NCBI GenBank assembly: GCA_020853795.1
Contig: JADYYF010000052.1
Span: 1 to 47,698 of the forward strand
Direction: 5' to 3'
DNA from: Candidatus Zixiibacteriota bacterium
GTDB lineage: Bacteria > Zixibacteria > MSB-5A5 > CAIYYT01
Length of the DNA stretch: 47,698 nt
Shown here in pieces: positions 1-35,665 of this stretch. Under the pieces are notes generated by a model, which saw only the letters and a list, made by a program, of their open reading frames with translations, had not been told where the DNA came from and did not search any database. Position 1 is the stretch's first letter, and every line of letters begins with the position of its first letter. A program made the position numbers and the translations under genes.

Positions 1-1079
1 CCCATCGGATGCGAGTTGCGGTGGACGTCGGCATGGCAGGTGCGGCACATGGTCATCACGTCGCTGTTCACGAGATACCGCGCATTGTCGGCGCCGTGCG
101 GCGCATGACAACTCGAGCACTCCTGGCCCGGATGCGTCATGTACTTCGGCTTGTCCTTCGCCGGCACGTCGGTGAAGTGGCAGCGCGTGCACAACGTTTG
201 TTGGCTCGAGGCCATCAGAGCGCCGACATTGGAAGCGTGCGGATTGTGGCAGTTGGTGCACGACCGATCGCCATCGATATGCGCGTGAAATTCTGCTTTG
301 CGCGCGCCGGCCTGGTCTTCATGACACTTCAGACAGATATCGGCTACTGAACCGCCAATCGCGAATGACTTGCCGCCGCCGGCGTGGCACTCTGAGCACT
401 CTCCGCTTTCGAACGGCGCATGTTGATTGGCCATCAGCAGCCCGCGGTGCGACGAAGCATGGGGATCATGGCAGGTTGAACAATCGGCATCTGCCAGGTC
501 ATAGCCTTTGTGAACAGTCATGAACTGCTGGTTCTGCGGATGGCAATCAAAGCACAACTGCGGAACGGCCTTGGCCAGAATCCCTTGATGCTCGGATCCG
601 TGCGGCGCATGGCACTGCGAGCAGTTGCGATTCGCCACCGGGGAGTGGACCTGCGCCTGCTTCAGCCAGTCAGCGACCGCCGGGTGGCAACTCTGGCACA
701 GCTCGCCTTGCGACTGCACCAGTTGATTGCGGAAATCGGAGGCGTGCGGATCGTGACACGACAAACACTCGCCGTTTGCGGCGGGTTGGTGCTTCGAAGG
801 TAGCGTGGCGACCTGTTTCAGATCTTCGTGGCAACTCTGACACAATTCGCCTGAATTCTCCTTCAGCAGCGCCGCATGGCGCGACGCATGCGGATTGTGG
901 CAGTCGGAACACTTGCCCTCGGCAAAAGCCGTATGCGGACTCTTCTTCTTCAGTTCAACCTGGATATCGTCGTGGCACGCAAGACACACCCCCGGTTCGT
1001 CGACCTTGACGACTTGCGCAATCAGCGGCGCAGCCGCGGCCAGCACCACGATCATCAGTATCGCAAGACGCGTCTTCAT
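1..1079 (-). CDS. Multiheme c-type cytochrome, at least 14 hemes (3' end off the window)
   Basis: Reading the minus strand from ATG at 1079 gives an open frame to the window edge, about 359 residues. A Sec signal peptide (starts MKTRLAILMIVV, hydrophobic to about residue 22) is followed by 14 CXXCH heme motifs (for example CLACH, CSDCH, CQSCH, CFDCH, CRTCH). Motifs of the type LCxxCH alternate with CxxCHxPH, the pattern of the doubled-CXXCH cytochrome family. The start ATG overlaps the stop of the upstream 26-heme gene (ATGA), and a GGAGG lies about 7 nt upstream, so the two are translationally coupled. It is probably periplasmic or at the outer surface and carries electrons as a heme wire. 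The C-terminus is not seen, so the total heme number and any anchor are unknown. Confidence 0.9.
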   Translation of the reverse strand, partial: MKTRLAILMIVVLAAAAPLIAQVVKVDEPGVCLACHDDIQVELKKKSPHTAFAEGKCSDCHNPHASRHAALLKENSGELCQSCHEDLKQVATLPSKHQPAANGECLSCHDPHASDFRNQLVQSQGELCQSCHPAVADWLKQAQVHSPVANRNCSQCHAPHGSEHQGILAKAVPQLCFDCHPQNQQFMTVHKGYDLADADCSTCHDPHASSHRGLLMANQHAPFESGECSECHAGGGKSFAIGGSVADICLKCHEDQAGARKAEFHAHIDGDRSCTNCHNPHASNVGALMASSQQTLCTRCHFTDVPAKDKPKYMTHPGQECSSCHAPHGADNARYLVNSDVMTMCRTCHADVHRNSHPM

Positions 1080-3052
1080 TCCTTGCCTCCGTTCTGCGGA
1101 GTCTCCGTGTGGCAGGCGTCGCACGCTCCGCCGGAGAACGGTTCATGGCCGTTTTTCAGCATCAAAGTGGCTTCCTTGGCGCCGTGGGGATCATGACACT
1201 TGCGGCAGTCGATCTGGCTGCCCGCCAGTCCCAGGTGCTTGCTCCTGAATTCTTGATCGTCGCCGTCATGGCAGGTCAAGCAGGCCATGGGGACCGGTTC
1301 ACTCAGAAGGGAGGTCAACTCGCTCGTGTGCGGCTTGTGACAACTGCCGCATTCATCCTTCGCCGGAGCGTGCGCGACACCCTTGGTCAAGACTTCGTCG
1401 ATATCTTTGTGGCAGTTCAAGCACAGCCGCGGCTCCTTGTCGAGCAGAAGATTCTTGATCTTACCGGCGTGCGGCTTGTGACAGGCGGCGCAATCTCCGT
1501 TCGTCACTGGTTGATGCATGCTGACGGCATTGGCGTCAATCACGTCGGAATGGCACTCGCCACACAACTGCGCCGGAGCCTGCGTCAACAGCCCCTTGAA
1601 GTTGGTGGCGTGCGGAGCATGGCAGGAACTGCAACTGCCCTCCGCAAAGGGGGGATGGACGACGGTGTTGCTGCTGTCCGCAATTACGGCCTGATGGCAA
1701 CTGCCGCAGAGCCGGTCCGGCGCGGCAGCCAGCAGCGGCTTGATCGCGGCGCCGTGCGGATTGTGGCACTTGGTGCACTCGCCCGCCTTAATCGGCAAAT
1801 GGACGCTGGTCTGTCCCATCCAGCTATTGACATCACTATGACATTCGGTGCACAGGTCACCTTCACTCTTACTCAACAGCTTCTCGTGAACCGACCCATG
1901 CGGAGCGTGGCAGTCCGTGCACAGACCGTCGCTGAACGGCGCGTGTTGGCTGGCGGCCGTCATCAAGGCCCCGAGGTCCGAATGGCAGTCGAGACAAAGG
2001 GTGTTCGTGTCCTTCGTAAGCAGATGCTGTTTGGTCTTACCGTGGGCGGCGTGGCACTGTGCGCAATTCTCCCGAACCGGTTGATGCGCCGACACGCCGG
2101 TCAATTGCGACTGCACATCGTCGTGACACTCCATGCACAGCGCGGATTCCTTCTTTGCCAGCAGCTTTGGTTCGCGCGATCCGTGCGGATTGTGGCACGT
2201 CAGACATTCAGCCTCGGCGACCGGCGGATGACTGCCGGCCGGAGCCACTTCGCCACGGTCATGGCACGACAAACACAACTCGTTCCCGTCACCCTGAAGT
2301 GCGAATGGCTCGCCCGTACCCGGCTCCTGGTGGCACGTTGTGCATTCGCCGCCTTCAACCGGCGCATGGATCGAATTGGCGAACAACTTGGGCGATTCCG
2401 AAGAATGCGGCGAGTGGCATAGCCCGCAATCCTTCGTTTCAACGGCGAAGGCGCCGTGTGCCGTCTTGAAAGCCGGGGCAGTGGGACTGTGACACTCGGC
2501 GCAGAGTTCGCCTTGCCCCTTCTTCAGCAGTGCCGGATGATCGCTGCCGTGAACTTCGTGGCACGCCGAGCAGTCCTGCTTCGCCGGGCTATGGACAAAT
2601 TGCTTCTCGTGCTCCGTGCGGTCGTGACAGGTGAAGCACACCTCGCGGGATTTGGCCACCAGCATCCCGGGCTGATCGCCGGCATGGGGGTTGTGACACT
2701 TGGAACACTCGCCCTGCTTCGCCGGCGCGTGCAAATACGCCCGCTCCATTCCCAGTTCCGTTTTGCTGTGACACTGGTAACACAGGGCCGCTCCCGTTTC
2801 CTTGAGTCGCAACATTCCCACCAGTCCGTGCGGCTTATGGCACGATTGGCAGTCCTTGTCCGCGAACGGCTGGTGCTTGTACTTCCCCTTGAAGTCCCCG
2901 ATTGAATGGCACTCCAGGCAGTTGCCTTCCGCTGAAAATCGCTTGCCGCGCTTGACCTGCGCATTCGCCGTAACCGCCGCTAACACGGCGACCGCCAGCA
3001 CCAGCGCTACGATTCGGCGTCTTTGAATCCTTGCGCGGCGTGTTGCGTCCAT
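1076..3052 (-). CDS. 26-heme c-type cytochrome
   Basis: The protein has 658 residues from ATG at 3052, chosen because it begins a clean signal peptide (MDATRRARIQRRRIVALVL, then a hydrophobic stretch ending in ANAQ) with a GGAG upstream. An in-frame extension to 3127 would run into the preceding gene. I count 26 CXXCH motifs, about one per 25 residues, in a regular unit in which LCxxCH is followed some 20 residues later by CxxCHxPHG. The His in the xPH element is a plausible distal heme ligand, as in doubled-CXXCH families. No other domain is visible, so the chain is essentially a heme scaffold. It follows a parvulin gene and a beta-barrel gene on the same strand, which suggests a periplasmic or surface electron conduit partner. 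Heme count is seen; conduit role is inferred. Confidence 0.93.
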   Translation of the reverse strand: MDATRRARIQRRRIVALVLAVAVLAAVTANAQVKRGKRFSAEGNCLECHSIGDFKGKYKHQPFADKDCQSCHKPHGLVGMLRLKETGAALCYQCHSKTELGMERAYLHAPAKQGECSKCHNPHAGDQPGMLVAKSREVCFTCHDRTEHEKQFVHSPAKQDCSACHEVHGSDHPALLKKGQGELCAECHSPTAPAFKTAHGAFAVETKDCGLCHSPHSSESPKLFANSIHAPVEGGECTTCHQEPGTGEPFALQGDGNELCLSCHDRGEVAPAGSHPPVAEAECLTCHNPHGSREPKLLAKKESALCMECHDDVQSQLTGVSAHQPVRENCAQCHAAHGKTKQHLLTKDTNTLCLDCHSDLGALMTAASQHAPFSDGLCTDCHAPHGSVHEKLLSKSEGDLCTECHSDVNSWMGQTSVHLPIKAGECTKCHNPHGAAIKPLLAAAPDRLCGSCHQAVIADSSNTVVHPPFAEGSCSSCHAPHATNFKGLLTQAPAQLCGECHSDVIDANAVSMHQPVTNGDCAACHKPHAGKIKNLLLDKEPRLCLNCHKDIDEVLTKGVAHAPAKDECGSCHKPHTSELTSLLSEPVPMACLTCHDGDDQEFRSKHLGLAGSQIDCRKCHDPHGAKEATLMLKNGHEPFSGGACDACHTETPQNGGKE

Positions 3053-3098
3053 TCCCGGCTTCACTCCAATCCTCTCAGTCTGCCCGCTCCCGCGTCGT

Positions 3099-4745
3099 CT
3101 AATTCCCGGCGCCGAGATAATTCTCAATCGCCTCGTCGAACAGCACTACGGTAGAATTCGCACGCAACCGCTCCAGCGCCGCATCCAACAATTTCGTAAA
3201 CTTGGCCTGGAACATCGCTTCGCGAATCTTCATCTCAACTTCGTCCATCTTCTTCAGTTCCCCCTGCCGCCGGTCCAGAATCTTGAAGATGACCCACCCA
3301 TCTTCCGTCGGATAAGCCTGCGAACTGCCACCCACCTTGAGCTGCTCGAGATCGGCACGGATCGACGGCGGAAATGCCGCCAACGAAACCCACTGGACCC
3401 GTTCGGCCAGTTCCTTGGCATCTTTGCGGAATCGCCCGGCCACGTATTCGAAATCCGCGCCCTCGCGCAGCAACGCCACCGCGCTATCCGCGGCCGCTGC
3501 CGCCGCCACCGTCACTTCGCGAATGTTGATCTGATCCGGATCGCGAAAATCAGCTTCGTGCTCGCTATAGTACTGCTGAAACTCGTCGTGATTGAATTTG
3601 ATCGCGGCGACAATCGTCTCCTTCAAGTAGATCTCGATCAGCGCGCTGTCGCTCGCTGTGACCAATTGCCGGACTATGCGCTCGTCCGTATCCAACCCGG
3701 CGTCGATACCCGCGCGATAGAGGACGGCTTCCTGCAGCAGTCCGTCCAGCGCCTGATAAAGGAGCGTTGCCACCGGAGCGGTGGCATTCGACATCGCCGT
3801 GTGCGCGGTCGCCTGGCGCAGGCGATTCTCGTCGACTAAAGCCTGGCCGGCGATCGTGGCGACGGGTCGCTCGCTGCCATACTGGAAGGTCGAATCCAGC
3901 ACCGAGGTCGTGTTCGCCACAATCGTCGCGATTGCCCCGCTGTCGATCACGACCGCGTAGCGGTCGCGCAGGCTTCCGACAAACCGCTTCCAGGCCGCCC
4001 CTGCGCTCTGTGTCCGCAGTGCCTCTCTGATCAGGCCTCGTAACGCCGGCAACTCTTCCGGATTCGCCGGCGCGGTATCTTCCACCCGCATGATGGCGCT
4101 CACTTGTCGATAGGGGAACGGACCGATCAGCTGACCTTTGGTCGCACCCTGCAGATAATCGCGCAAGTCCAATTCGACATTGGCCCAATACTTGAACGAG
4201 TGTAGCCCGCCCATATAGCGATGAACGTCCAGCGAGCGCTCTTTGGCCAGGCTGTCCATATCCGCGCCGGCCTTGACCTGCGCCACGAGCGATTCTGCCG
4301 CCGCCACGGTCTCGACCGCGATCGTACGGACCCGCACCTTGTGATAGTTGTCGCGAAAATATGCCGCGATGCTGTCCTCGCCGATACTGTCAATCGGCGG
4401 AAGGTTCTTGCGGACGTAAAGCCGTGACACGAGTTCACGCTTTTGCTCATCCAGAAATTCCCGGAAGTAGTCTTCGTCCGGAATTCCCAATGCCTTGGCC
4501 TCCTGAATGATCAAACGGTCGTTAACGAGCTTCTTCAGCAGTTTGTGGTAGTCAAAGTCGCCCTTCTGGCTGGCGGACATTCCGGAATGAATGCCGGCGA
4601 AGATGGCATCGATATCCGTTGTGAAGATTGAGTCACTGTTGACGACCGCCAGAAGCGCCCGCTCCGGCTGTTCCGCACCGGCGCTGCCCGCAAGCGCTAT
4701 CTTCCAAACTCCAAGTAGAAGTACTATCAATGATCGCGCCGACAT
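3099..4745 (-). CDS. Exported peptidyl-prolyl isomerase with duplicated SurA-N/parvulin units
   Basis: The protein has 548 residues from ATG at 4745 (GAAAGGAAA about 10 nt upstream); an earlier TTG at 4764-4766 would give seven extra residues before the signal peptide. After the signal peptide (cleavage near AGSAGAEQ) comes a SurA-N-like segment beginning LLAVVNSDSIFTTDID, then a parvulin-like segment at about residues 120-225. A second helical segment (around VATIAGQALVDENRL) and a second, better conserved parvulin segment follow, covering about the last 140 residues and including WVSLAAFPPSIRADL and DGWVIFKILD. Parvulins of this type assist folding of secreted or outer-membrane proteins. 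Here it lies between a barrel and two giant cytochromes and probably serves them. The stop is 46 nt upstream of the 26-heme start. Confidence 0.85.
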   Translation of the reverse strand: MSARSLIVLLLGVWKIALAGSAGAEQPERALLAVVNSDSIFTTDIDAIFAGIHSGMSASQKGDFDYHKLLKKLVNDRLIIQEAKALGIPDEDYFREFLDEQKRELVSRLYVRKNLPPIDSIGEDSIAAYFRDNYHKVRVRTIAVETVAAAESLVAQVKAGADMDSLAKERSLDVHRYMGGLHSFKYWANVELDLRDYLQGATKGQLIGPFPYRQVSAIMRVEDTAPANPEELPALRGLIREALRTQSAGAAWKRFVGSLRDRYAVVIDSGAIATIVANTTSVLDSTFQYGSERPVATIAGQALVDENRLRQATAHTAMSNATAPVATLLYQALDGLLQEAVLYRAGIDAGLDTDERIVRQLVTASDSALIEIYLKETIVAAIKFNHDEFQQYYSEHEADFRDPDQINIREVTVAAAAAADSAVALLREGADFEYVAGRFRKDAKELAERVQWVSLAAFPPSIRADLEQLKVGGSSQAYPTEDGWVIFKILDRRQGELKKMDEVEMKIREAMFQAKFTKLLDAALERLRANSTVVLFDEAIENYLGAGN

Positions 4746-4749
4746 GGTT

Positions 4750-5874
4750 TCAGTTTCCTTTCTCAATGCTCGTGGTTCCCGTGCGGCTTGGGCCCAGATC
4801 CCGATGTTCTTCCTCGATTAGCTTGTTGCAAGCGTGGTGAACCGCGGCCAAAGTCAATTCGCCGATTGCATACGTCCGGCCAATACCAAACAGCGTTTCG
4901 GTATCGGCGCCATCGCGAACAACCGATGTTGCCGCAGTCAGCTCGCCGGTCCGCGCGTCGATCATTCTCAGCGTCAGCTCGACATGCGGTCCGATTTCGC
5001 TATCACCGCCTCGGGAGGGAAGGAACTCCGTTACGATGCCGGTGACAATCGTGCCGACGCCAAGCTCGGCCGCCAACACGTCCGGCAGAGGGGCCACGGC
5101 GCCGCCCTGAACATTGATCCCAAGTTTCTGCTGCAACCGTGTCAGCTCGCCGGGTTCCAGCAGTCGATAACCGCGGCGGTGCAATTCATAGATCAGCGCT
5201 CCCGTCGCTGCGGCGCCGGCTCCGGCAAAATCGCAGGCGTTGTCAATCTCCACGACGGCGACACGCCCTCGCGCTGCCAGCGCGCGATCCTTCTTGGCCG
5301 GTTCCTCAATGGCGTCAGACCGCTGCGCAATCAGTTTGGCCGCGTCCTTCAACAACCGGTCGAGCACTTTGCTTGTCAGCGTTTCCACGAAGCTGATCCG
5401 GCCAATGCCGAATGCGCCCGCCTCGCCCTCGCCGCTGAGTGCACAGCGATTCAGCCAGACAATTCCTCCGTCTCTACAGTCGTAGGCGCGCAAATTCACC
5501 GCGACTTCGGGGTTCTCTTGCTCAAGATATAGTTCAATTGCGCCGGTCAGGATTACTTCGGCGCCCGTCGCCGCCGCAATCAGCGCGGCGCTGCTGCTGT
5601 CGCATTCTCCGATCAGCCGGAGACGATGACTGCGCATCAAGCCCCGCAGCGTGTCGGCGGCCACCAAGTCGAATCCCGCCGCCGTCAGCCGGTCGCGCAG
5701 ACTCGCCTCAATCGCCTTTGCCCCTTGCATCGACTCAGAGTAGTTTGCCAGTGGGATCAGCGCCAGTCGCGGCAAGGTCGCGGCGATAGCAGTCGCTGTC
5801 GAAAGCAGAGCCAGCAGACACAAAATCATCAGTTTTGCGGGAATTGCGGAGAATCCAAGTCGGCTCGGCAACAT
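4750..5874 (-). CDS. Exported protein with two CsgG/GNA1162-like domains
   Basis: The protein has 374 residues from ATG at 5874, chosen because it starts a signal peptide (MLPSRLGFSAIPAKLMILCL, cleavage near AIAA). The mature chain has two similar alpha/beta units. One starts LPRLALIPLANYSE and contains LRDRLTAAGFDLVAADTL and ATGAEVILTGAI. The other starts RVAVVEIDNACDF and contains LHRRGYRLLEPGELTRL and LGVGTIVTGIVTEFLP. The pattern of an IP/VE strand, a 'RGY/AGFxLV' strand and a 'G..ILTG' strand is that of CsgG-like and LpoB-like periplasmic proteins. No lipobox Cys is present. It begins 5 nt after the lipoprotein gene and ends 4 nt before the parvulin gene, so it is certainly co-transcribed. 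Function is unproven; a periplasmic assembly or structural role at the outer membrane is a guess. Confidence 0.7.
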   Translation of the reverse strand: MLPSRLGFSAIPAKLMILCLLALLSTATAIAATLPRLALIPLANYSESMQGAKAIEASLRDRLTAAGFDLVAADTLRGLMRSHRLRLIGECDSSSAALIAAATGAEVILTGAIELYLEQENPEVAVNLRAYDCRDGGIVWLNRCALSGEGEAGAFGIGRISFVETLTSKVLDRLLKDAAKLIAQRSDAIEEPAKKDRALAARGRVAVVEIDNACDFAGAGAAATGALIYELHRRGYRLLEPGELTRLQQKLGINVQGGAVAPLPDVLAAELGVGTIVTGIVTEFLPSRGGDSEIGPHVELTLRMIDARTGELTAATSVVRDGADTETLFGIGRTYAIGELTLAAVHHACNKLIEEEHRDLGPSRTGTTSIEKGN

Positions 5875-5879
5875 AGCAG

Positions 5880-6458
5880 CTACTTCACCAGCGTCTTGAT
5901 GACCTTGCGCACGCACTTGCGTGCAACCTCGCTCTGCGATCGCTGGCCGGTTCCGAACAGCGAGGCAAAGAATCCGCGGCTGCCCTCGGTATGTGTCGCC
6001 GACCACACCGTTTGTGCGCTTTCGGTTTCAATCATGCGGACGTCGAGCGTCACGACCGTGCCTTCGTTGGCGGCGGCTCGGGCGCCGGACGACTCGTTAA
6101 CCGTCCCCAGAATAATCCCCTGAACCCCCAGCGCTTGTCCCAGTTGCTTCGCCTGCTCTTCCGTCAACAGATCGAATCGGGTGATATTCATCCGGCTCGT
6201 CGCGCTCAACACCTCGCCCGGCTCGACGATGTCAAAGGCGTCGGTTGCCAGCAGCTCGGTGATGAACAAATGCGTCACGCGTGCGCTCGCACCCTGATCG
6301 TTGGAAAGATTCTCGAACGGCAACACGGCGACCCTCTCGACAAACGCGAAGTTATAGTCGCGGTGAATAAAGACCGTGGAGCCCATTCCGGCACACCCGG
6401 CGATGACACCAATGCCAAGAGCCGCGATCATGACTGCAAGGATTCGAAGCTGTCTCAC
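5880..6458 (-). CDS. Outer-membrane lipoprotein, CsgG/GNA1162-like
   Basis: The protein has 192 residues, starting at GTG 6458 with AAGGG about 11 nt upstream. The N-terminus is a lipoprotein signal with lipobox VIAGC (Cys22), followed by GMGSTV. The mature part has the CsgG-superfamily pattern: FVERVAVLPFENLSND, then ARVTHLFITELLATDAFDIVEP, then LGQALGVQGIILGTVNE, and TLDVRMIETESAQTVWS. Residue +2 after the lipid-modified Cys is Ala, consistent with Lol-dependent transfer to the outer membrane. It lies 14 nt downstream of the beta-barrel gene and 5 nt upstream of the two-domain CsgG-like gene. A role as a small accessory lipoprotein of the barrel complex is inferred from position only. Confidence 0.8.
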   Translation of the reverse strand: MRQLRILAVMIAALGIGVIAGCAGMGSTVFIHRDYNFAFVERVAVLPFENLSNDQGASARVTHLFITELLATDAFDIVEPGEVLSATSRMNITRFDLLTEEQAKQLGQALGVQGIILGTVNESSGARAAANEGTVVTLDVRMIETESAQTVWSATHTEGSRGFFASLFGTGQRSQSEVARKCVRKVIKTLVK

Positions 6459-6472
6459 GGATTAGTACCCTT

Positions 6473-8575
6473 TCAAAGCCCGGTTCTCAGCCCAACGTGT
6501 ACGGATTGGTTCTTGCCCCCGCCCGCCGAAGTCAGATCACTCCGGCTGTACGACCCGGTCAGCACCGTCCGTCCCGAAAAGGCATACTCGACCTGCCCGC
6601 TGTATCGCTCGCTGCGCGAGTCGTTGCCGTTTTCATAATCCGACAGATTGACCGCGGCCGCCGTTGTCAGTTTCCGCGACAGCAGCCAACTGACTGAGTA
6701 ATCTTGATTCAGATATCGGGTGTGGTTGTCGCGCGTCAGATCGACGTTGCCGCGTAACTGGATCGCTGCGGTCAAGCGCAAGCCGAAATCGGCGGTATAC
6801 TGATTGCGATTGCGCACATTACCCGCCTGATCCTTGGTGCGTTGATGAAAGTAGCTGCCTTCGGCATCGAGGCCCGGGATTATCCGGCCGTTCACGGCGG
6901 CGCGATAATTCCAATTGTCGAAGCCGGTATTATTGAGCATGACCGTATTGCGACCGCCTCCAAACTCCTGCGTAATCGTCAGTCGTGGAAAGATTTCTCC
7001 GCGGACGCGCGCCGTCGCAAAGTTCATCTCTTGTGATTTCACGTCGGCAATATAATTGTCCCGATGGGCCAGCGACATCGAAAACGTTAGCGTTTCCAAC
7101 GGCCGATACTGCAGGTCATAATTGGCCGCAAGCGTGCGGTCTACGTCCACACGCGAATATTCGTAATCAATCAATCCGATCTGCACGCGCGCATTTTGGC
7201 TCAAGGCCGCATTAGTCTGATTGTGCAGACCGAAGGTATAGTAAGTCTCGTCGCGACCTTGATTCAAGGAACTGCCTCCATCGCGACGCAACGCGACATT
7301 GGCCGATGCACTCCAATTCTTGCTCAGATTGAGGCTGTTGTTCAATGTTGCCAGATGGACCTGTTGTGTGCGCTTGGCGACTCCCGTTTCGTCCAGACGC
7401 AGCAAAGCGGAGAACTCCGTCACCATCACGCTGTCGATTTCGTTCAAGCCCTGGTTGACGGCTTTGATGTATCGTGTCGCCGTCTCCGGGAAGGTCACTT
7501 CATAGCGGCTGAAGCCCGGGCTGTATTGGGAAGTCGCCCCTGCGATGGCTGTCCACAGCAGGTTGTCCTCGGATCCGTAGATATCCCAACGCACATTGTT
7601 GCCCGAAGGACGATCGGTATAGATATAGAGCAGCGAGACTTCCCGCTGGAATCCCAAATCGCCCCCGATATTCTGGTTCACACGATTGTCGCCGATGTCG
7701 ATGCGCGGCAACGTCGCCGCCGTCAGGTCTCCATCAATCAGGGCGCTGACCGAGTCCAAGCTGCCCTGGTCCGGCGTCGCGTCGCTGGCATAAAGCCCGG
7801 TCAGCACGGGGACCTCGATCGGAATCGGATCAAAGGCCAGGTTCTTGTCTTGTTCATGCTTGTAGGTAAAGTCGTAGCTGACCGTCGTCCGGAGCCGGCC
7901 GCCCATCATCATCTGTAGATGTGAGAATTGCGCCCCCAAAAGATTGTTGGTCTGCTCGACGTGCTGCGACCGGTTCAGCGTCTGCTTGTGCGAGTAGTTG
8001 GAGGTAACAGCCGTCGTCGTACCCGTGTAACCGACTCCAAGCATCGCCAGGCGATCCCGCGTATCCCGATCCTGTCGGTTCGCTTCATTGTAGAGCTTCT
8101 CCTGAAGCAGCCGCAAGCGCACCCAGGGACGGTTGACCACCTGCGAGCGCACGGTCACGCCTGCGCTCTCGTTGATCAGGTGGGTCAGGCGGTCATTGCT
8201 CTTGGAATCGCGGCGCATCACCTGTGCCGCGGCCGCAACCCAGCTTTGCGCCCACGTCATTTCGCCCGACGGCTGAAACTCACTTTGCCACGTGTTGGCG
8301 CCGATGGTCTGACTCAGCCCGAAATTGTAGTAACGGACATTGGCGCGCGTCAGCAGACTGCGCAGGAACCGCTTCTGCCAGCCGACATTGTATTCCTGAT
8401 CAACGCTTTCCTGCGTGTTCTGATCCTGCTTGGTTGATCCATAGCCAAGCCGCAAGTCCGCCGTGAGATTATTCGAGATGCGCCCGTGAGCGGATGGCGA
8501 CAAAATCAGCGCCAACAGCGCCGCCAGAAGCAATCGCTCCGCGGCTCTGACTAAATTGACTCTGCTTTGTCGCAT
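6473..8575 (-). CDS. Outer-membrane beta-barrel protein with discoidin-like insert; candidate electron-conduit porin
   Basis: The protein has 700 residues from ATG at 8575 (GGGAG 8 nt upstream; a GTG at 8584 is less likely). A signal peptide (cleavage near PSAHG) is followed by many alternating amphipathic strands rich in Asn, Arg and Tyr, typical of a large barrel, and the chain ends in strand VHVGLRTGL. Between about residues 255 and 395 the barrel pattern is interrupted by a segment resembling an F5/8-type C (discoidin) domain: ALIDGDLTAAT, REVSLLYIYTD, VRWDIYGSEDNLLWT, YEVTFPETATRYIKAVN. It is the first gene of a tight minus-strand run leading to two giant multiheme cytochromes, so I infer a porin-cytochrome conduit like MtrB or Omb/Ext systems, without clear sequence identity to those families. 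Confidence 0.75.
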   Translation of the reverse strand: MRQSRVNLVRAAERLLLAALLALILSPSAHGRISNNLTADLRLGYGSTKQDQNTQESVDQEYNVGWQKRFLRSLLTRANVRYYNFGLSQTIGANTWQSEFQPSGEMTWAQSWVAAAAQVMRRDSKSNDRLTHLINESAGVTVRSQVVNRPWVRLRLLQEKLYNEANRQDRDTRDRLAMLGVGYTGTTTAVTSNYSHKQTLNRSQHVEQTNNLLGAQFSHLQMMMGGRLRTTVSYDFTYKHEQDKNLAFDPIPIEVPVLTGLYASDATPDQGSLDSVSALIDGDLTAATLPRIDIGDNRVNQNIGGDLGFQREVSLLYIYTDRPSGNNVRWDIYGSEDNLLWTAIAGATSQYSPGFSRYEVTFPETATRYIKAVNQGLNEIDSVMVTEFSALLRLDETGVAKRTQQVHLATLNNSLNLSKNWSASANVALRRDGGSSLNQGRDETYYTFGLHNQTNAALSQNARVQIGLIDYEYSRVDVDRTLAANYDLQYRPLETLTFSMSLAHRDNYIADVKSQEMNFATARVRGEIFPRLTITQEFGGGRNTVMLNNTGFDNWNYRAAVNGRIIPGLDAEGSYFHQRTKDQAGNVRNRNQYTADFGLRLTAAIQLRGNVDLTRDNHTRYLNQDYSVSWLLSRKLTTAAAVNLSDYENGNDSRSERYSGQVEYAFSGRTVLTGSYSRSDLTSAGGGKNQSVHVGLRTGL

Positions 8576-8589
8576 TTCGCTCACTCCCT

Positions 8590-8671: not shown

Positions 8672-9727
8672 TTACGGCTCGAACGGAGCGTCGCCGGCAT
8701 CCTTCGCATGGCACTTGTTGCACAGCGAGCGCTGGTTCAAACTCGGATACGGATTCGGAATCGCATACGATCCGGACTCGACACCGTCTTCGTGCAGGAA
8801 GGTGATGTTGAAGTCCCAACGGCCGGCGTTCTGGGCCGAGGTCGCATGGGCGCGATGACAGGTGATGCAGGTCACCTGGCTGGTCGCCGACGGACCATTG
8901 GTCGAGGTCGTCGTGTTGGTCGGATCTTCAAACGGAACCGCCGCAATGTACGCGGTCGCCTGGGTCCCACCCGTCATGTTGTCGGTGCCGTTGTACAGAT
9001 TGTAGATGTTGGCAATCGTACCGCCAATGGCGCGGCCGGTCGGGTGAATCAGCTTGGTCGCGTTGTTGTGGAAATCGCCGTGGCAATTGCCGCACCACGC
9101 ACCCATGCCGCTCTTGTAAGCAGTGTGCATGACATTGGTCTCAGCCGTATTGTAGCTATTGCCTTCGGCATCCGGAGCCGGAGCCGTGAACGTGGCCAAA
9201 CCGTCTTGGATCGGGCCAACGCCGTTCAGCAAACGGAAATTCTGGTTGCCGTGCGGATCATGGCACGACGTGCAACCCAGTTGGCTGGCCGGGAACGTAC
9301 CGCCCGGGGAAACGAGCAACGTTCCGTCCGGACCGGCACCACGACCAGGAGCATTGATATTGTGACCGGCTGCACGGCCCGGAATCGGGCTGGTCGCGCC
9401 GCCGTGACCGTCATTAATATTGTCCTCAGTCAAGAACACGAAGTTGCCGCCGCCCTTTTCGGCCGGCGGGTTCAACGGATCCGTGCCCCACACTGCACCG
9501 CGGCTGGTGGCATGGCACGACAAGCACAGGTCGCTCGCCGACTGGAACTTCAGCAGGTAGGCGTTTCCGTTCGGATGAGCCGGGTCCACCAGGACGCCGT
9601 TGTTCATATTGTGCATCGTATGGCAACCGCCGCAATACGCCACGCCGCCATCATGGAATGCAAACGCAGTGCTTGACAACAATGCCGCCAACGACATCGA
9701 GACAAGGACTAACAAAAGCTTGCGCAT
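8672..9727 (-). CDS. OmcS/OmcE-like hexaheme cytochrome, predicted extracellular nanowire subunit
   Basis: The protein has 351 residues from ATG at 9727, with GGAGG 8 nt upstream. A Sec signal ends at TAFA, so the mature chain begins FHDGG. There are six CXXCH motifs at precursor residues 32, 68, 152, 212, 287 and 336. From memory of Geobacter OmcS, the match extends well beyond heme motifs: the N-terminus FHxGGVAxCxGCHTMHN, then PGGTFPASQLGCTSCHDPHG, WCGNCHGDFHN, the TIANIYNLY region, TAYIAAVPFED, CHRAHA, and the C-terminal LCNKCHAKD. His16 of the mature protein, which in OmcS ligates a heme of the neighbouring subunit, is conserved at the same position. The mature chain of 328 residues is shorter than OmcS but keeps six hemes. 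It follows the NHL gene by 19 nt and a terminator closes the operon. Polymerisation is predicted, not shown. Confidence 0.9.
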   Translation of the reverse strand: MRKLLLVLVSMSLAALLSSTAFAFHDGGVAYCGGCHTMHNMNNGVLVDPAHPNGNAYLLKFQSASDLCLSCHATSRGAVWGTDPLNPPAEKGGGNFVFLTEDNINDGHGGATSPIPGRAAGHNINAPGRGAGPDGTLLVSPGGTFPASQLGCTSCHDPHGNQNFRLLNGVGPIQDGLATFTAPAPDAEGNSYNTAETNVMHTAYKSGMGAWCGNCHGDFHNNATKLIHPTGRAIGGTIANIYNLYNGTDNMTGGTQATAYIAAVPFEDPTNTTTSTNGPSATSQVTCITCHRAHATSAQNAGRWDFNITFLHEDGVESGSYAIPNPYPSLNQRSLCNKCHAKDAGDAPFEP

Positions 9728-9746
9728 GTAAAAAACCTCCGAAAGA

Positions 9747-10886
9747 CTAATCAGATACAAACGAACGTGAATTCAACAAGGGGGTAGTAAACTCCAGACT
9801 CACCTCCTCCTTCTGCGCTTCGCGCTTCCAAGGCTTAAGGGTTGCTGATGAGGTTGGTTTCGCAAACGACTTCACTTGTTCCGCGATGAACTCCGGCAAC
9901 TCGCACACCTGAACCCGATTAAGAAAAATCTGGCTGACATAAATGCGGCCCAGGTTGTCCACTGCCATGCGCTCCGGATGGTAGAACCACCCCAGCGTAT
10001 TTCCCATCCCGCCGAATTCACCGAGAAATTGACCTGCGGTCGTGAAGCAAACCACGTTGAAACGATGTTTATCGAGAACTAAGACTAAAGCGTGATCGAT
10101 GACGTCCACCGCCGTCGGGAAGTTCAGCTCGCCGATGTTGTTGCCGCGCAGCCCAATCCGCCGCACCAGAGTTCCGGAGAGGTCGTAGACATACACAACG
10201 CCAAACATCGACACGGGCAGGTACAGCAGCTCACCGTCAATCCGCGGCGAGCCCATAACAACTTCCTGGCGCTCTTTCTCGGTCATGTCCGTCACGAGCG
10301 GGAACTCACCCTGATATTTCCCCTCAGCGTCGATCTTGACGATGCGGTCAAACGCGCCGCTCATCAGATAGAGAATGTCCTGACTGTCGATCGCGATGTA
10401 CCGCACGTCAAAAGTGTCGGAGTCAGCGAAATCGATCAGTTCCAGGCGTCCCATCAGCGTGCCGTCGTAGTCAAACTTGAAGACCGACCCGGCGCGCTGC
10501 CGCTGCGTTCCGACGACGTAGATGAATCCGTGCGAATCGACAACCAGATCAGTCGGGCTGCCGAATTCGTCACGCCCCGAGAACTGGAACTTGAAAACTC
10601 CCGAGGTGTCGAAAACCGCCACACGATTATTGCCGGTATCGACAATGAACACTTCATTGAAGCGCTGATCGATGAAGACCTGCTGGGGACGGAGGAGACC
10701 ATTGTTGGTTCCGGGAGGGTCGAGCTTGCGCAGGAACACGGCCGGAACCGACTTCTCAGCCTGCGCCTGCAAACCCGCAGGAAGCAGAACAGCAACGAGA
10801 AATGCCGTTAAGACAACGACGCCCACTAGGGCAGTTATAATCCGGATGTTCTTCCCGATACAACTCTGTCGATTCGTCGCTGGCAA
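9747..10886 (-). CDS. Exported or membrane-anchored NHL-repeat beta-propeller protein
   Basis: The protein has about 379 residues. No ATG is available near the 5' end. I chose TTG at 10886 because GGAG lies 9 nt upstream; a TTG at 10910 would add eight residues and has no ribosome site. A hydrophobic segment (ITALVGVVVLTAFLVAVLL) is a signal peptide or anchor. Six NHL-type blades follow, with recurring 'P..V.VD..G.IYV' and 'N.RV.VFD..G.F...F' patterns, for example FIVDTGNNRVAVFD, SPTDLVVDSHGFIYVV and PERMAVDNLGRIYVS. The blades are followed by a charged 60-residue tail. It directly precedes the OmcS-like gene. My recollection is that NHL genes also neighbour omcS in Geobacter, which would suggest a role in filament assembly or surface attachment. 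Confidence 0.82.
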   Translation of the reverse strand: MPATNRQSCIGKNIRIITALVGVVVLTAFLVAVLLPAGLQAQAEKSVPAVFLRKLDPPGTNNGLLRPQQVFIDQRFNEVFIVDTGNNRVAVFDTSGVFKFQFSGRDEFGSPTDLVVDSHGFIYVVGTQRQRAGSVFKFDYDGTLMGRLELIDFADSDTFDVRYIAIDSQDILYLMSGAFDRIVKIDAEGKYQGEFPLVTDMTEKERQEVVMGSPRIDGELLYLPVSMFGVVYVYDLSGTLVRRIGLRGNNIGELNFPTAVDVIDHALVLVLDKHRFNVVCFTTAGQFLGEFGGMGNTLGWFYHPERMAVDNLGRIYVSQIFLNRVQVCELPEFIAEQVKSFAKPTSSATLKPWKREAQKEEVSLEFTTPLLNSRSFVSD

Positions 10887-10924
10887 TTCGGAAGTCTCCG
10901 CACCCGCCAATTAGCAGGAGTAAA

Positions 10925-10940
10925 TGTGAACTATTTCACA
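10925..10940. promoter_or_regulatory. CRP/HcpR-like operator, site 1
   Basis: TGTGAACTATTTCACA is a perfect 6-bp inverted repeat (TGTGAA/TTCACA) around four bases and fits the TGTGA-N6-TCACA consensus of CRP-family regulators. It differs at one base from the palindrome at 32291-32306. It is only 15-40 bp upstream of the candidate NHL start codons, so it could be a repression site, or it marks a very short leader. Confidence 0.7.
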
Positions 10941-11015: not shown

Positions 11016-11035
11016 TATGTGATTATTTTCACATA
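11016..11035. promoter_or_regulatory. CRP/HcpR-like operator, site 2
   Basis: TATGTGATTATTTTCACATA is an inverted repeat with 7-bp arms (TATGTGA/TCACATA) around six bases, matching TGTGA-N6-TCACA. It lies about 130 bp upstream of the NHL start, a normal distance for an activator site. No clear -10 element is visible at the class II distance. Confidence 0.7.
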
Positions 11036-24661: not shown

Positions 24662-25108
24662 ATGCTGACGACGATCGAAAAAGTGATTCTGTTGCAGGCG
24701 GTGGATGTCTTCGCCGATGTACCCACGGCCAATCTGGCCTATATCGCCGCCATTGCCGAAGAGGTCAGCTTCGCGGCCGGTACGACAATCTTCAGCGAAG
24801 GTGATCCGGCGACGGCCATGTTCTTCGTCCTCGACGGCCGCGTCAGTCTGCAGCGCGACGGCAACGAAATTGCCGTGGCGGAAGCCAACCAGGGTTTCGG
24901 CGTCTGGGCACTGTTCGACGAAGAGCGGCGCGTGGTCACCGCCACCACCGTCACCACTGTGCGCCTGTTGCGGATCGAAAGTGAGAGCTTTGCCGAAATC
25001 CTTGCCGACCACGCCGAAATCGCCCAGTTCCTCCTCAAGACCCTGACGCGGCGGCTGCGCAGCATTATGGAGCGCCTGCAACTGGAGCATGGCCGCCGTC
25101 CGGCTTGA
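24662..25108 (+). CDS. Cyclic-nucleotide-binding-fold protein (CRP-like effector domain, no HTH)
   Basis: The protein has 148 residues from ATG at 24662; a GTG codon lies directly before it. It is a single cNMP-binding fold: VDVFADVPTANLAYIAA, FSEGDPATAMFFVLDGRVSL, then the position of the phosphate-binding cassette FGVWALFDEERRVVTATT, and the final helix. The usual Glu of the FGExALL cassette and the Arg of R(S/A)A are not in the standard places (VWALFDEERR), so binding of cAMP or cGMP is doubtful. It has no DNA-binding domain and so is not the regulator of the CRP-like sites in this window. As part of the transporter-HEAT run it may gate or regulate that transporter. Confidence 0.82.
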   Translation: MLTTIEKVILLQAVDVFADVPTANLAYIAAIAEEVSFAAGTTIFSEGDPATAMFFVLDGRVSLQRDGNEIAVAEANQGFGVWALFDEERRVVTATTVTTVRLLRIESESFAEILADHAEIAQFLLKTLTRRLRSIMERLQLEHGRRPA

Positions 25109-29994: not shown

Positions 29995-30208
29995 CCGCAC
30001 TCCGAGAACTAATCGGCACCTCATCGCATCCTAACCGAGAGGCGCCATTCTTCTTGCGGATATGGTTGAACGTTACACCAGCGCAAAACCCGCACGTATG
30101 CTTCTCCGCGAGCTCCCGGCGACCTCGCCGCTCAAGAATCTCCGGGTGCCGCGCGCATCCACTCGATTTCGATTTGTGACCCAAGTTGCGAACCAAGAAA
30201 GGAAAATT

Positions 30209-32081: not shown

Positions 32082-32290
32082 TCGCCATTATTGGACAAAT
32101 TCCGATAGCTTTTGACGTCTTTCAAGGTTCATTCTTTACCCTCCAAATCTGATACTATTTGTTATATTTTTCACGATCTGAGCCGATAGACACTAATAGC
32201 AAAATAGGATGATTTGTCTACTTTTTGCTTGACATTGATATGCCCAGAAGCTATTTATGCGAGCAGAAACAGGAGAAGAAGCGCCGATCA

Positions 32291-32340
32291 TGTGAATTAT
32301 TTCACAAATAGTATTGGTTCGGTGTCGTACGATTACAGGA
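32291..32340 (+). promoter_or_regulatory. CRP/HcpR-like operator and class II promoter of the redox operon
   Basis: TGTGAATTATTTCACA (32291-32306) is a perfect 6-bp inverted repeat and differs at one base from the site at 10925-10940. A -10-like TACGAT (32328-32333) would start transcription near 32340. The centre of the palindrome (32298.5) would then be at -41.5, the classic class II activator position. The ribosome site AGAGGTGA follows at 32343-32350 before the ATG at 32357. Confidence 0.65.
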
Positions 32341-32356: not shown

Positions 32357-33262
32357 ATGGCATTTACACGTCGGGATCTCTTTAAGCTGGCTGCTGCGGG
32401 AAGTGTCTCCGTCCTGGCAGGGAAGCTTGAAGCAAAACAGGATGAGTTTGCGCTTGATTGCAGTCAGACTTATGGCGTGCTCGTTGACACCGTTGTCTGC
32501 ATCGGCTGTCGCAAATGCGAGTGGGCCTGCAATAATGAACACAAACTCGCGAATAAACCACTGACAGCTTTTGACGACAAATCGGTATTTCAGGGGCACC
32601 GTCGCCCGAATGACAATGCCTATACTGTCGTCAATGAGTTCCACGACCCGCAGACATCAAAGGCCTTCACTATGAAAGTGCAGTGCATGCACTGCAATCG
32701 CCCGGCCTGCGTCTCCGCCTGCATCGTCGGCGCACTCCAGAAGAACAAGAGCGGCTCGGTCGATTACGACGCGTGGAAATGCATCGGCTGTCGCTATTGC
32801 ATGGTTGCCTGCCCGTTCCAAATTCCAGCTTACGAGTACCGTGAAGCCCTCAAGCCGCGCGTGATGAAATGTACATTCTGCGCTCACCGGCTGGAAGAGG
32901 GTAAGATGCCGGCCTGCGTCGGCATCTGTCCCAACGAGGCCTTGACCTTCGGTACCCGACAAGAATTGATCGAAGTCGCCAAGGAACGCATCAAGGCCAA
33001 GCCGGATCGTTACTACAATCATATTTACGGCGAAACGGAAGCCGGCGGCACCAGTTGGATGTACCTCGCGCCGGTCGACTTCGTCCACACCGAGTTGCCC
33101 AAGCTCAACAGCCGGCCCATTCCGGAAACGACTGAAACCATCCAGCACGGTATCTTCAAGTCCTTCGTTCCGCCGCTGGCGCTGTACGGATTTCTCGGCC
33201 TGATCATGTATTCGATGCGCGACAATAAGGAAGACAAGGAGTCGGAAAATGACCGCTCATGA
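32357..33262 (+). CDS. Tat-exported ferredoxin-like subunit with four [4Fe-4S] clusters and C-terminal membrane anchor
   Basis: The protein has 301 residues from ATG at 32357. The N-terminus is a Tat signal (TRRDLFKLAAAGSVSVLAG). Four Cys sets follow: CIGCRKCEWAC, CMHCNRPACVSAC, CIGCRYCMVAC and CTFC...CVGIC. This is the HybA/DsrO/NrfC-type electron-transfer subunit. Residues about 265-290 (FVPPLALYGFLGLIMYSM) form a transmembrane anchor, as in HybA. It overlaps the NrfD/HybB-like gene by 14 nt. Together they form a periplasm-facing quinone oxidoreductase module; similar Fe-S plus NrfD plus multiheme sets occur in Hmc and in Geobacter Cbc complexes. Confidence 0.93.
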   Translation: MAFTRRDLFKLAAAGSVSVLAGKLEAKQDEFALDCSQTYGVLVDTVVCIGCRKCEWACNNEHKLANKPLTAFDDKSVFQGHRRPNDNAYTVVNEFHDPQTSKAFTMKVQCMHCNRPACVSACIVGALQKNKSGSVDYDAWKCIGCRYCMVACPFQIPAYEYREALKPRVMKCTFCAHRLEEGKMPACVGICPNEALTFGTRQELIEVAKERIKAKPDRYYNHIYGETEAGGTSWMYLAPVDFVHTELPKLNSRPIPETTETIQHGIFKSFVPPLALYGFLGLIMYSMRDNKEDKESENDRS

Positions 33263-34499
33263 AATCCCCGCGCCGGTAACCCGGGTGCCGTTCTTCACCA
33301 AGGGCACGATCATTGTCGCGGCCGTTGCGGCTTTTGGCATCGCTGCCTATATCTACCGCCTGATCTTCGGCCTGGAGGCCGCCACCAATCTTGATAACCA
33401 GTATCCCTGGGGGATCTGGATTGCCATCGACGTCGCCTCCGGCGTCGCTCTCGCTGCCGGCGGATTCACGACCGCCGCCTTGGCTGACATCTTCCATAAG
33501 GAACGCTACCACTTGATCACGCGGCCGGCACTCCTGACGGCGATGCTGGGCTATACGTTCGTGGTGATCGGTCTGCTGGCCGACCTCGGACGCTACTACA
33601 ATGTCTGGCATCCGATGCTGCCGAGTATGTGGCAGGGCAATTCGGTGCTCTTCGAAGTCGGCATGTGCGTCATGGTCTATTTGACCGTGCTTTACATTGA
33701 GTTTCTGCCGATCGTATCGGAGCGGTTCATCGGCCGGGTCAACCTGCCCGGCCCGCTGCGCGTCTTTAACAAGCTGATCGACGGCTGGTTGCGCATCTGC
33801 CGCACGTTCTTGGGCAAATTCATTTCGATCTTCATCATCATGGGCGTGGTGCTCTCGTGCCTGCACCAGTCGTCGCTGGGGACACTCATGGTCATCGCGC
33901 CGACCAAGATGCACCCGCTCTGGTATTCCCCGATCTCCCCGTTGATGTTCCTGATGTCGGCGATCGCGGTCGGTTTCCCGATGGTGATCTTCGAATCGCT
34001 GCTGGCCTCGCGCTCGTTCAAATTGCCGCCGGAGACCAAAGTGCTCTCCTCGATCGCGACCTATACTCCCGTGCTGCTCGGTGCTTATCTCGCCGTCAAA
34101 GTTGGTGACCTGACTCTGCGCAACGCGTGGCCCTATCTCTTCGAAGGCAGCGTCGAATCCACGATGTTCTTGATTGAAATCCTGCTGGGTGTCGTCGCGC
34201 CGATCCTGCTCCTATCGTCGAGCAAAATCCGGCACTCGGTCAGCGGCCTCTTCGTGTCGGCCTCGCTGGTGATCTTCGGAGTGCTCCTGAATCGCATCAA
34301 CGTCTTCCTGATCGCCTACGAGCCGCTGTATCCCGAAAATACCTACTTCCCGTCGATCTTCGAGATTGCCGTAACCGTTGGTTTGGTGGCGGCTCTCGTT
34401 TTGGTATACCGCTTCTTCGCGTTGAATTTCCCGGTCATCGCGCAGCCGGCCGATCAAGCCGCCGAACGCGAACGGCCGCATGCGGTGAAAGCGGCTTGA
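33249..34499 (+). CDS. NrfD/HybB-family integral membrane quinone-interacting subunit
   Basis: The protein has 416 residues from ATG at 33249, with AAGGAG upstream inside the end of the Fe-S gene. It has about ten transmembrane helices and the HybB hallmarks: NQYPWGIWIAIDVASGVALA near the second helix, LADLGRYYNVWHP, and SCLHQSSLGTLMVIAP in the middle. This family binds quinone and passes electrons to or from a periplasmic Fe-S subunit without heme of its own. Its stop TGA overlaps a possible ATG of the cytochrome gene by one base, so the three genes form one operon. In this context quinol oxidation feeding the 13-heme cytochrome is the likely direction, but this is inferred. Confidence 0.94.
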   Translation: MTAHEIPAPVTRVPFFTKGTIIVAAVAAFGIAAYIYRLIFGLEAATNLDNQYPWGIWIAIDVASGVALAAGGFTTAALADIFHKERYHLITRPALLTAMLGYTFVVIGLLADLGRYYNVWHPMLPSMWQGNSVLFEVGMCVMVYLTVLYIEFLPIVSERFIGRVNLPGPLRVFNKLIDGWLRICRTFLGKFISIFIIMGVVLSCLHQSSLGTLMVIAPTKMHPLWYSPISPLMFLMSAIAVGFPMVIFESLLASRSFKLPPETKVLSSIATYTPVLLGAYLAVKVGDLTLRNAWPYLFEGSVESTMFLIEILLGVVAPILLLSSSKIRHSVSGLFVSASLVIFGVLLNRINVFLIAYEPLYPENTYFPSIFEIAVTVGLVAALVLVYRFFALNFPVIAQPADQAAERERPHAVKAA

Positions 34500-34516
34500 T
34501 GAAAGGACTCAGTTTC

Positions 34517-35665
34517 ATGAACAAGCATCACGCGGCAGTCTGGGGTTTCGTGATTGTCGTCTTGGCGATTGGCCTCGCATTGCCGCTGACCGCACAAAAA
34601 TCAACTATGCCGGCCGCGCCGCAAGTGGACTGCTCCGAATGTCATACGTGTGCCGTGCCGACTCTCTCCGAACCTTGCCTGAAATCGTGCCCGCGCACCA
34701 CGATGGTGCATCAACAGGGACGCCACGATGTCACCGAAGCACCCGACTCGATGTTGATCGACGAGTTGGCCGATCTCTACCAGCCGGTGCGCTTCGGCCA
34801 CAAACTCCACGCTTCCATGGCCGAAATGGGGGCCGAGTGCGCGACCTGTCATCACTACAGCCCGCCGGGACGCATCCCGCCCTGCAAGGAGTGCCATTCG
34901 ACCGCCGCCGAATCACGCGATCTGGCCAAACCCAACCTCAAGGGCGCTTACCACCGCCAGTGCTTGTCATGCCACCGCGAATGGAGCCATGACACCCAAT
35001 GCATTGTCTGCCACCTCCCCAAGGTTGGAGGGGCGCTGGCCGGAGAAGTATCGGACCCGACCGACATCATGGGTATCCCACACCCGGTGATCACCGTACC
35101 GGCGAAGAAGGTCTATGACACGCCGTACAAGCAGGCGCCGATCGTCACCTTCCAGCACAAGGAACATATCGATCTGTTCGGCTTCCGCTGCGTCGATTGC
35201 CACGAGAAAGAGAACTGCGGCAACTGTCATGATATCCAGCAGCCGGCGAAAGGCCAGAAAACCCAGGAACAAGTCCACGCCGTGTGCAATGACTGCCACA
35301 AGCAAGACCAGTGCGCCAAGTGCCACGACACCGTCGAACGGCCGGGTTTCACGCACAATACTACCGGCTGGCCGCTCAACCCTTATCATACCAACTTGGA
35401 TTGTTGGGCCTGCCATCCGACCGGCAAACGCATCTCCAAGCTGAGTCGAATGTGCGTCAATTGCCACAGCGGCTGGAACAGCGAGAATTTCAAGCACGCC
35501 ATTACCGGTATCAAGCTGGACGAAATCCACGCGGAACTGGATTGCACCGATTGTCACAAAGACCGCAAGTATGAAGTCGACCCGGTCTGCGAGGACTGCC
35601 ATGATGACGGCCGTACCGCCGAAACGGCTCCGCCCGGCATGAAGGTCAGGATGCAACGGCATTAA
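34517..35665 (+). CDS. 13-heme c-type cytochrome of the NrfD-type complex
   Basis: The protein has 382 residues from ATG at 34517 (AAAGGA 9 nt upstream); ATG at 34499 would add six residues. A signal peptide (cleavage near PLTAQ) precedes 13 CXXCH motifs, including CATCHH. The N-terminus has an unusual Cys-rich segment, CSECHTCAVPT...CLKSCP, with extra cysteines that are not heme motifs. Several HKLH, HKEH and H-E-H elements in the middle resemble class III cytochrome c3 repeats with His distal ligands. It closes the Fe-S/NrfD operon and is probably the periplasmic electron acceptor of that complex, as in HmcA- or CbcS-like subunits. Confidence 0.93.
   Translation: MNKHHAAVWGFVIVVLAIGLALPLTAQKSTMPAAPQVDCSECHTCAVPTLSEPCLKSCPRTTMVHQQGRHDVTEAPDSMLIDELADLYQPVRFGHKLHASMAEMGAECATCHHYSPPGRIPPCKECHSTAAESRDLAKPNLKGAYHRQCLSCHREWSHDTQCIVCHLPKVGGALAGEVSDPTDIMGIPHPVITVPAKKVYDTPYKQAPIVTFQHKEHIDLFGFRCVDCHEKENCGNCHDIQQPAKGQKTQEQVHAVCNDCHKQDQCAKCHDTVERPGFTHNTTGWPLNPYHTNLDCWACHPTGKRISKLSRMCVNCHSGWNSENFKHAITGIKLDEIHAELDCTDCHKDRKYEVDPVCEDCHDDGRTAETAPPGMKVRMQRH

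Follow-up and report, generated by a model that had tools for sequence, protein, structure and literature searches.

Gene clusters and palindromes in the window

The window, by which we mean the whole stretch of 47,698 nucleotides analysed here (contig JADYYF010000052.1 of a Candidatus Zixiibacteriota bacterium), carries a nanowire operon and an NrfD-type operon, with candidate Rex operators upstream of both. Its relevant features are:

1076..8584, minus strand: rest of the nanowire cluster, with genes for a 703-aa protein, a CsgG-like protein, a 418-aa protein, a PPIase and a cytochrome with 26 CXXCH motifs (Pfam, motif counts)
8672..9760, minus strand: six-haem cytochrome of OmcS-like sequence and candidate subunit of the filament (phmmer E 2.5e-39 to OmcS, 6ef8; 6 CXXCH)
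9747..10910, minus strand: NHL-repeat protein, first gene of the nanowire operon (PF01436, 6.6e-9); the true start may lie inside the ORF
10925..10940, no strand: candidate Rex operator nearest the nanowire operon, exact TGTGAANNNNTTCACA; sites are also found at related NHL-OmcS operons
11018..11033, no strand: second, distal candidate operator of the nanowire operon, TGTGATTATTTTCACA, which deviates at 1 position from the 12 fixed bases
32229..32257, plus strand: predicted sigma-70-type promoter TTGACA-N17-TATTTA, best in the region with 9/12 letters; start expected near 32264
32291..32306, no strand: candidate Rex operator TGTGAATTATTTCACA, exact match; centre 58 bp before the start codon
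32328..32333, plus strand: TACGAT, the -10 element of the earlier note, 4/6 letters to TATAAT; not conserved in orthologues
32357..33262, plus strand: first gene of the NrfD-type operon, iron-sulfur protein, HmcB/HybA-like (Pfam Fer4_11), with a twin-arginine-type leader (by eye)
33249..34499, plus strand: NrfD-type membrane subunit, HybB/HmcC-like (PF03916, 1.4e-21)
34496..35665, plus strand: multihaem cytochrome c with 13 CXXCH motifs (PF02085, 5.3e-16; motif count)

The three ORFs of the NrfD-type operon overlap end to end, the cytochrome ORF sharing 4 bp with the NrfD gene, and the nearest named relatives are Zixibacteria records. The first product showed homology to HmcB (NCBIfam, 2.3e-97), HybA (3.7e-75) and PDB 1kqf_B (7e-38), and the membrane subunit to PRK10881 (1.1e-101) and HmcC (2.4e-90), with all four NCBIfam matches under their curated cut-offs. 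The iron-sulfur and NrfD subunits resemble HmcB/HmcC of the Hmc complex (HmcABC) and HybA/HybB of hydrogenase-2. However, the bit scores for HmcB (325.8/420), HmcC (303.5/550) and HmcA (49.9/400) all lie below the curated cut-offs, the 13-CXXCH cytochrome is weakly like HmcA, and the three ORFs include no hydrogenase gene. A 654-aa protein encoded between a TonB-type receptor and the NrfD operon (30062-32026, plus strand) had no Pfam match at E 0.001.

The genes of the nanowire cluster at 1076..8584 are presumably co-transcribed, judging from their common strand and close spacing. By homology the product of 8672..9760 belongs to the OmcS type, and as a candidate filament subunit it would polymerise into extracellular filaments. 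The cluster ends with the 26-CXXCH cytochrome (1076-3127, minus strand), whose best PDB match is 6r2q_A; the name given there, cystathionine beta-synthase, is apparently a mislabelling of the molecule. Like the OmcS/oet-type clusters of Geobacter and syntrophic sulfate reducers, as far as the source at hand describes them (PMC10553843), the cluster has an OmcS-like cytochrome beside further multihaem cytochromes. Unlike those, the Zixibacteria cluster begins with an NHL-repeat gene, and one to three operators lie near the start in 9/12 loci.

The last base of TGTGAATTATTTCACA lies 51 positions before the ATG at 32357. The earlier note had described this palindrome as differing by one base from a site about 21 kb away, and our analysis confirmed its exact position, the difference (1/16 bases) to the copy at 10925-10940 and the separation (21.4 kb). 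The 11018-11033 site, which adjoins the 10925 copy, is a perfect TGTGAN6TCACA. Searching the window for TGTGAATTATTTCACA with up to 3 mismatches revealed 5 matches (3 places, two counted on both strands) compared with 0.24 expected, and 0/100 shuffles reached this number. A weak palindrome at 32160, with 2 mismatches to the 10 half-site bases and 3 to the 12-base consensus (by eye), was treated as chance.

In the whole genome (3.56 Mb, 215 contigs) TGTGAN6TCACA occurs at 13 sites and its reversed control at none. Three of the 13, two of them neighbours, lie in the window, which makes up 1.3% of the genome (binomial P 6e-4). With at most one mismatch to TGTGAANNNNTTCACA, 23 sites were found versus 1 control; about 7.9 would be expected for uniform bases. 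Twelve of the 13 TGTGAN6TCACA sites precede ORFs, and the inner AA/TT are both kept in 6/13, where less than one would be expected.

Recurrence of the site at related operons

A search for the NrfD gene revealed 62 matches, 60 of them with readable upstream sequence; the 62nd (G075) is at a contig end. We analysed the 30 best-scoring of the 62 matches (29 with upstream sequence) as a first set and 31 more as a second. L145 (identical to L021), where the start was estimated across a deletion and a two-mismatch site lies 55 bp before it, was counted as the sixtieth locus. The palindrome was present with at most one mismatch in 22/29 best-matching loci, 28-87 bp before the start, and missing at this threshold from L089, L097, L099, L100, L102, L104 and L105. 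The other 31 loci contain it in eight cases (L137, L142, L143, L156, L157, L159, L160, L161), 54-71 bp before the start apart from L157 (191 bp), which gives 30/60 for all NrfD loci with upstream sequence. Among the lower-identity loci it was found in 3/9 at 55-60% identity and in 5/21 below 55%. By eye, L099, L100 and L102 have two-mismatch palindromes that abut TTGACA and lie nearer -43. L089 displayed an outer-swapped form, AGTGAAATGCTTCACT, near its NrfD start.

The 22 loci were chosen for having the palindrome, so that its 12 fixed bases are conserved by construction. At positions outside this selection, the outer T was found in 16/22, the outer A in 14/22, and A/T at the spacer positions in 20, 18, 14 and 21 of 22; the bases flanking the operator carry little information in these loci. 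Three genomes (G024, G025, G026) have two NrfD-operon paralogues each (L141/L156, L146/L159, L144/L161), with the operator only on the paralogue that is less like that of the window. Regulation and closest homology therefore diverge there. Outside the phylum, no site with one mismatch or fewer to the 10-base pattern was found in the NrfD relatives from Hydrogenedentota, Desulfovibrionales, Prolixibacteraceae and Salinivirgaceae or in the unplaced L028; the best palindromes there, in L027 and L029, have 2 mismatches (L030 is without upstream sequence).

For the nanowire operon we surveyed 22 OmcS-like loci, of which five have too little upstream sequence and 12 have the NHL gene upstream, as confirmed by tblastn. 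These NHL-type loci carry the site at up to one mismatch in 9/12; L108 and L117 have two-mismatch sites and L112 has none. OmcS-like paralogues without the NHL gene have the site in 0/5 loci. Two or more copies with at most one mismatch are also present at L114, L115, L116 and L119. In L113, L116 and L119 one site may fall within the first codons of the NHL gene.

Both upstream regions are readable in nine genomes with an NHL-type nanowire operon, and in six of them (G000, G016, G019, G052, G084, G088) both operons carry the palindrome with up to one mismatch. In G043 and G067 it precedes the NrfD operon, with a two-mismatch palindrome in front of the nanowire operon, and in G086 it was found at the nanowire operon only. 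The proposal that the two operons belong to one regulon is therefore supported. The earlier note had gone on to see in the two operons two ends of one chain, a claim for which our support is weak. In its favour, an NrfD-operon match is commoner in nanowire genomes (14/18 versus 43/114, Fisher P 0.002, with the relatedness of the genomes ignored). On the other side, complex I, TCA-cycle and amino-acid genes are part of the regulon as well, and co-regulation alone is thus no proof of a direct electron path.

Rex, its probable gene set and the distribution of the candidate operator

Published Rex operators have the consensus TTGTGAANNNNTTCACAA (PMC5317091), also given as TTGTGAAW4TTCACAA for Rex under the control of NAD+/NADH (PMC2883068). 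TGTGAANNNNTTCACA is identical to the published operator. TGTGAATTATTTCACA matches 12/12 inner fixed bases of TTGTGAANNNNTTCACAA; its outermost 5' base is A instead of T and its outer 3' base is A.

The genome has a single rex gene, at C169, with E 1.9e-45 to a solved Rex. Ten of the twelve DNA-contacting residues named for T. maritima Rex in PMC8836258 are identical in its product (alignment by eye), including Arg48, Lys49, Arg60 and Gly61, and the GxGxxG nucleotide motif is present as GVGNIG. The gene has its own exact operator. An exact operator lies 22-90 bp before the PF06971 match in 30/31 rex loci (the 30 best-scoring and our own), and a site is found beside rex in 17/19 Rex-bearing genomes with a full site listing, the misses being G001 and G009.

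The genes behind the sites of our genome are rex, nuoA, and those for citrate synthase, the succinyl-CoA ligase beta subunit (sucC) and glutamine synthetase. Further sites precede a DmsE-like cytochrome, a multihaem cytochrome with weak similarity to ExtKL, and an unnamed ORF that has a 2-oxoacid:ferredoxin oxidoreductase behind it. Malic enzyme lies behind a one-mismatch site. Other one-mismatch sites, inspected by eye, precede what we take to be glutamate dehydrogenase, acetyl-CoA synthetase and an Rrf2-type regulator, and a few have no obvious target. The sites L011 2051, L012 1513 and L013 1779 (before DmsE-like cytochrome, succinyl-CoA ligase and glutamine synthetase) share a deviation, TGTGAANNNNGTCACA, on the plus strand.

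We compared the distribution of the exact site with that of Rex and CRP in 132 genomes, which were treated as independent. Rex was found in 118 of them and some CRP-type HTH match (E 1e-3) in 115, with 93 over the cut-off. Exact sites occur in 119/132 genomes, 453 sites in total compared with 9 for the controls, as follows:

Rex without a CRP match: sites in 11/11 genomes
Rex and CRP both: sites in 98/107 genomes
CRP, no Rex found: sites in 7/8 genomes
neither found: sites in 3/6 genomes

The 14 genomes in which no Rex was found, 10 of which still have sites, are mostly incomplete. Three of them are at least 90% complete: G069 (CRP present) and G125, both without a site, and G102 (90% complete, CRP present), which has four and is a genuine exception if its rex has not simply fallen into an assembly gap. 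Conversely, the exact site is absent from 9/118 Rex genomes, including G050, G121, G123 and six of family f19. In this family (G125-G131) 6/7 genomes keep rex and none has an exact operator; the recognition helix of L076 is almost unchanged. An outer-swapped form, AGTGAANNNNTTCACT, was considered as a shifted motif of f19 and rejected, as 2/7 f19 genomes have one copy each. The same sequence is present three times per genome in G076, G077, G083, G086 and G087 (chiefly family f8), mostly with A/T-rich spacers, and may be the target of a different regulator. Motif, gene set and co-occurrence together point to the repressor Rex as the binder of the palindrome.

Promoter geometry and a possible Rex-controlled route

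To locate promoters, the best TTGACA-N16..18-TATAAT was sought within a stretch reaching 120 bp upstream and 90 bp downstream of the operator centre at the 22 sites of the best-matching NrfD set, with sequence resampled from dinucleotide frequencies as control. The predicted promoter of the window consists of TTGACA at 32229-32234, 17 bases and a weak -10, TATTTA, at 32252-32257, and the operator centre lies at +35. At least 10/12 promoter letters were found in 20/22 NrfD loci compared with 7% in resampled sequence. The best promoter-like match lies upstream of the operator in 21/22 loci (operator at +13 to +67), and in the remaining one the operator covers the -10. Relative to the predicted start the operator centre is at -10 once, at +13 to +15 three times, at +32 to +40 eleven times and at +56 to +67 seven times. 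In L077-L106 these distances are not evenly spread and cluster near +14, +35 and +66, as if helical phase mattered.

For rex, the operator centre falls between +1 and +11 relative to the predicted start in 25/29 scored loci, and the rex promoters reach at least 10/12 letters in 12/29 versus 7% for resampled sequence. A position over or after the predicted promoter, as is compatible with a repressor, was found at all 22 NrfD sites and, at +1 to +11, at these 25/29 rex sites. The scans at nanowire operators were barely above resampled sequence, with at least 10 letters in 2/15 (both L114; 4% expected), and those at the remaining sites of our genome were mixed.

The earlier note had instead placed the palindrome at the class II position of an activator, with TACGAT as the -10 element. 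The arithmetic of this proposal is correct, as TACGAT occupies 32328-32333 and the palindrome centre lies 41.5 bp before 32340. The activation itself was not supported: at the class II -10 position the 22 loci scored a mean of 2.77/6 compared with 3.19 in resampled sequence, and the predicted promoter lies upstream of or overlaps the operator in 22/22. Of random sequences, 5% score as well as TACGAT when the position is fixed and 26% when six neighbouring positions are considered, and TACGAT is probably a chance occurrence. On these predictions we reject the activator geometry of class II and prefer a Rex operator in a putative repressor position.

The geometry also bears on a CRP/FNR-family activator, encoded at C79, as the protein that would bind the palindrome at class II (-41.5) and activate both operons. 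TGTGAN6TCACA is also the CRP consensus, which the palindrome fits, and E. coli CRP class II promoters have the outer half-sites TGTGA/TCACA, as do our sites. The genome encodes one CRP-type HTH over the cut-off, whose likely ATG follows a palindrome at a distance of about 220 bp; the spacing of TACGAT suits class II, and the genomes with a CRP match and no Rex found have sites in seven of eight cases. We nevertheless regard this reading as quite improbable. In contrast to E. coli class II promoters, our sites have the inner AA/TT, a mark of Rex kept in both halves in 6/13 sites, they follow the promoter-like match, and they need no CRP gene, as all 11 genomes with Rex and no CRP match at E 1e-3 have them. 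The class II -10 is not conserved, and at each of the 22 loci the site follows or overlaps the promoter-like match. E. coli CRP has Arg180 in its recognition helix, and the helix of C79 has a serine at this position (by eye). Finally, the sister genome G003, in which no CRP gene was found, keeps the operator upstream of iorA. For this reason CRP autoregulation at C79 was set aside and iorA is the likelier target of that site, although its distance in G000 (346 bp) is long. Elsewhere in the window (24659-25108, plus strand) lies a gene for a stand-alone cyclic-nucleotide-binding domain protein, which has no CRP-type HTH match and is closely followed by a response regulator with a SpoIIE phosphatase.

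Two further explanations leave CRP aside. Rex might bind and yet activate, or act dually, at some promoters such as that of the nanowire operon, where two or three sites are spaced at 39 to 209 bp. The several operators near the start of that operon, with no convincing promoter placement, would fit this view, as would the three distant NrfD loci with sites that abut the -35. But the operators of rex and of the NrfD operon coincide with the predicted start or follow it, and the literature at hand treats Rex as a repressor, which makes an activating role improbable, if slightly less so than CRP. That the two copies resemble each other by chance, or as a generic palindrome without function, is hardly credible. 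Some sites do look accidental, such as that of C213 within a 351-aa ORF, and the site is missing from half of all related NrfD loci; against this stand the excess of matches over expectation in the window (5 versus 0.24), that of exact sites over controls across the 132 genomes (453 versus 9), and the presence of the site, 28-87 bp before the start, in 22/29 best-matching NrfD loci.

Judged from sequence, the palindrome thus very probably represents an operator for the NADH/NAD+-sensing repressor Rex, which would control the HmcB/HybA-NrfD-cytochrome operon at 32357-35665. Other Rex proteins are known to bind DNA with NAD+ and to let go of it with NADH (PMC2883068, PMC8836258). By homology to these studied proteins, a Rex dimer would occupy the operator when NAD+ prevails. 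As the operator lies just past the predicted transcription start, bound Rex should block RNA polymerase there. NADH accumulation would cause Rex to leave the operator, and the NrfD-type operon would be expressed. Common Rex operators would place the OmcS-like nanowire operon, rex, complex I, TCA-cycle and other cytochrome genes under the same control, so that an NADH surplus would simultaneously switch on NADH-to-quinone entry, the proposed step from quinol to cytochrome, and the extracellular wire. The sequences themselves show the operator and its recurrence, where it stands with respect to promoter-like sequence, rex with its own operator, and the set of genes, whereas we infer binding by the genome's own Rex, the sign of the regulation and the direction of the electrons, with quinol as donor to the NrfD complex and the wire as outlet. 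Several observations speak against the Rex reading: the operator is present in only half of the NrfD loci, some genomes have sites with no Rex found or Rex with no exact site, the -10 of the window is weak, and the promoter scans barely exceed resampled sequence at the nanowire operators and are mixed at other sites. We lean towards the broader view that in Zixibacteria the entire path of electrons from NADH out of the cell is under Rex control, with complex I, TCA-cycle entry, the NrfD-cytochrome complex and the OmcS-like nanowire operon.

As far as the sources at hand describe them, the Rex regulons of Staphylococcus aureus, Streptomyces avermitilis, Thermotoga maritima and Caldithrix abyssi are similar in their palindrome, Rex DNA contacts and central energy targets, and in the operator before rex itself, which is present in C. 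abyssi too. They differ in that an OmcS-like nanowire operon and an NrfD-cytochrome complex, which are among the targets here, are not named for the known regulons in these sources. The closest precedent in the literature at hand is the Rex proposal for Calderihabitans maritimus. There, genes that rise with CO, among them a Kor cluster and three genes for extracellular multihaem cytochromes, are preceded by Rex-like motifs, and a rise of NADH/NAD+ was proposed as the cause of the CO induction (PMC7306483). Common to both systems are Rex-like motifs before multihaem cytochromes, which in C. maritimus are raised at an excess of reducing power (CO). Unlike the present case, C. maritimus is a Firmicute for which expression was measured, whereas our data are sequences, and the part of the paper at hand describes no OmcS-type nanowire, NrfD operon or phylum-wide recurrence (PMC7306483). 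In Lactiplantibacillus, growth on an electrode acts on Rex and adhE according to PMC13185627, and PMC13367045 names extracellular electron transfer solely in its reference list. Rex control of extracellular cytochromes has thus been proposed before, and among the open-licence papers listed for Rex with extracellular electron transfer, nanowires or multihaem cytochromes none dealt with Rex control of nanowires.

The signal that switches nanowires on is of practical interest, and the genomes analysed here are largely assemblies of uncultured bacteria. A well-understood NADH sensor with operators on the wire and on an inner-membrane complex offers a concrete and testable hypothesis: if it is true, wires would be built when the NADH/NAD+ ratio signals electrons without an outlet. 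It would extend the link between Rex and extracellular cytochromes, proposed for one Firmicute (PMC7306483), to nanowires. The genes behind the operator would also provide a route to further electron-transfer genes in the phylum.
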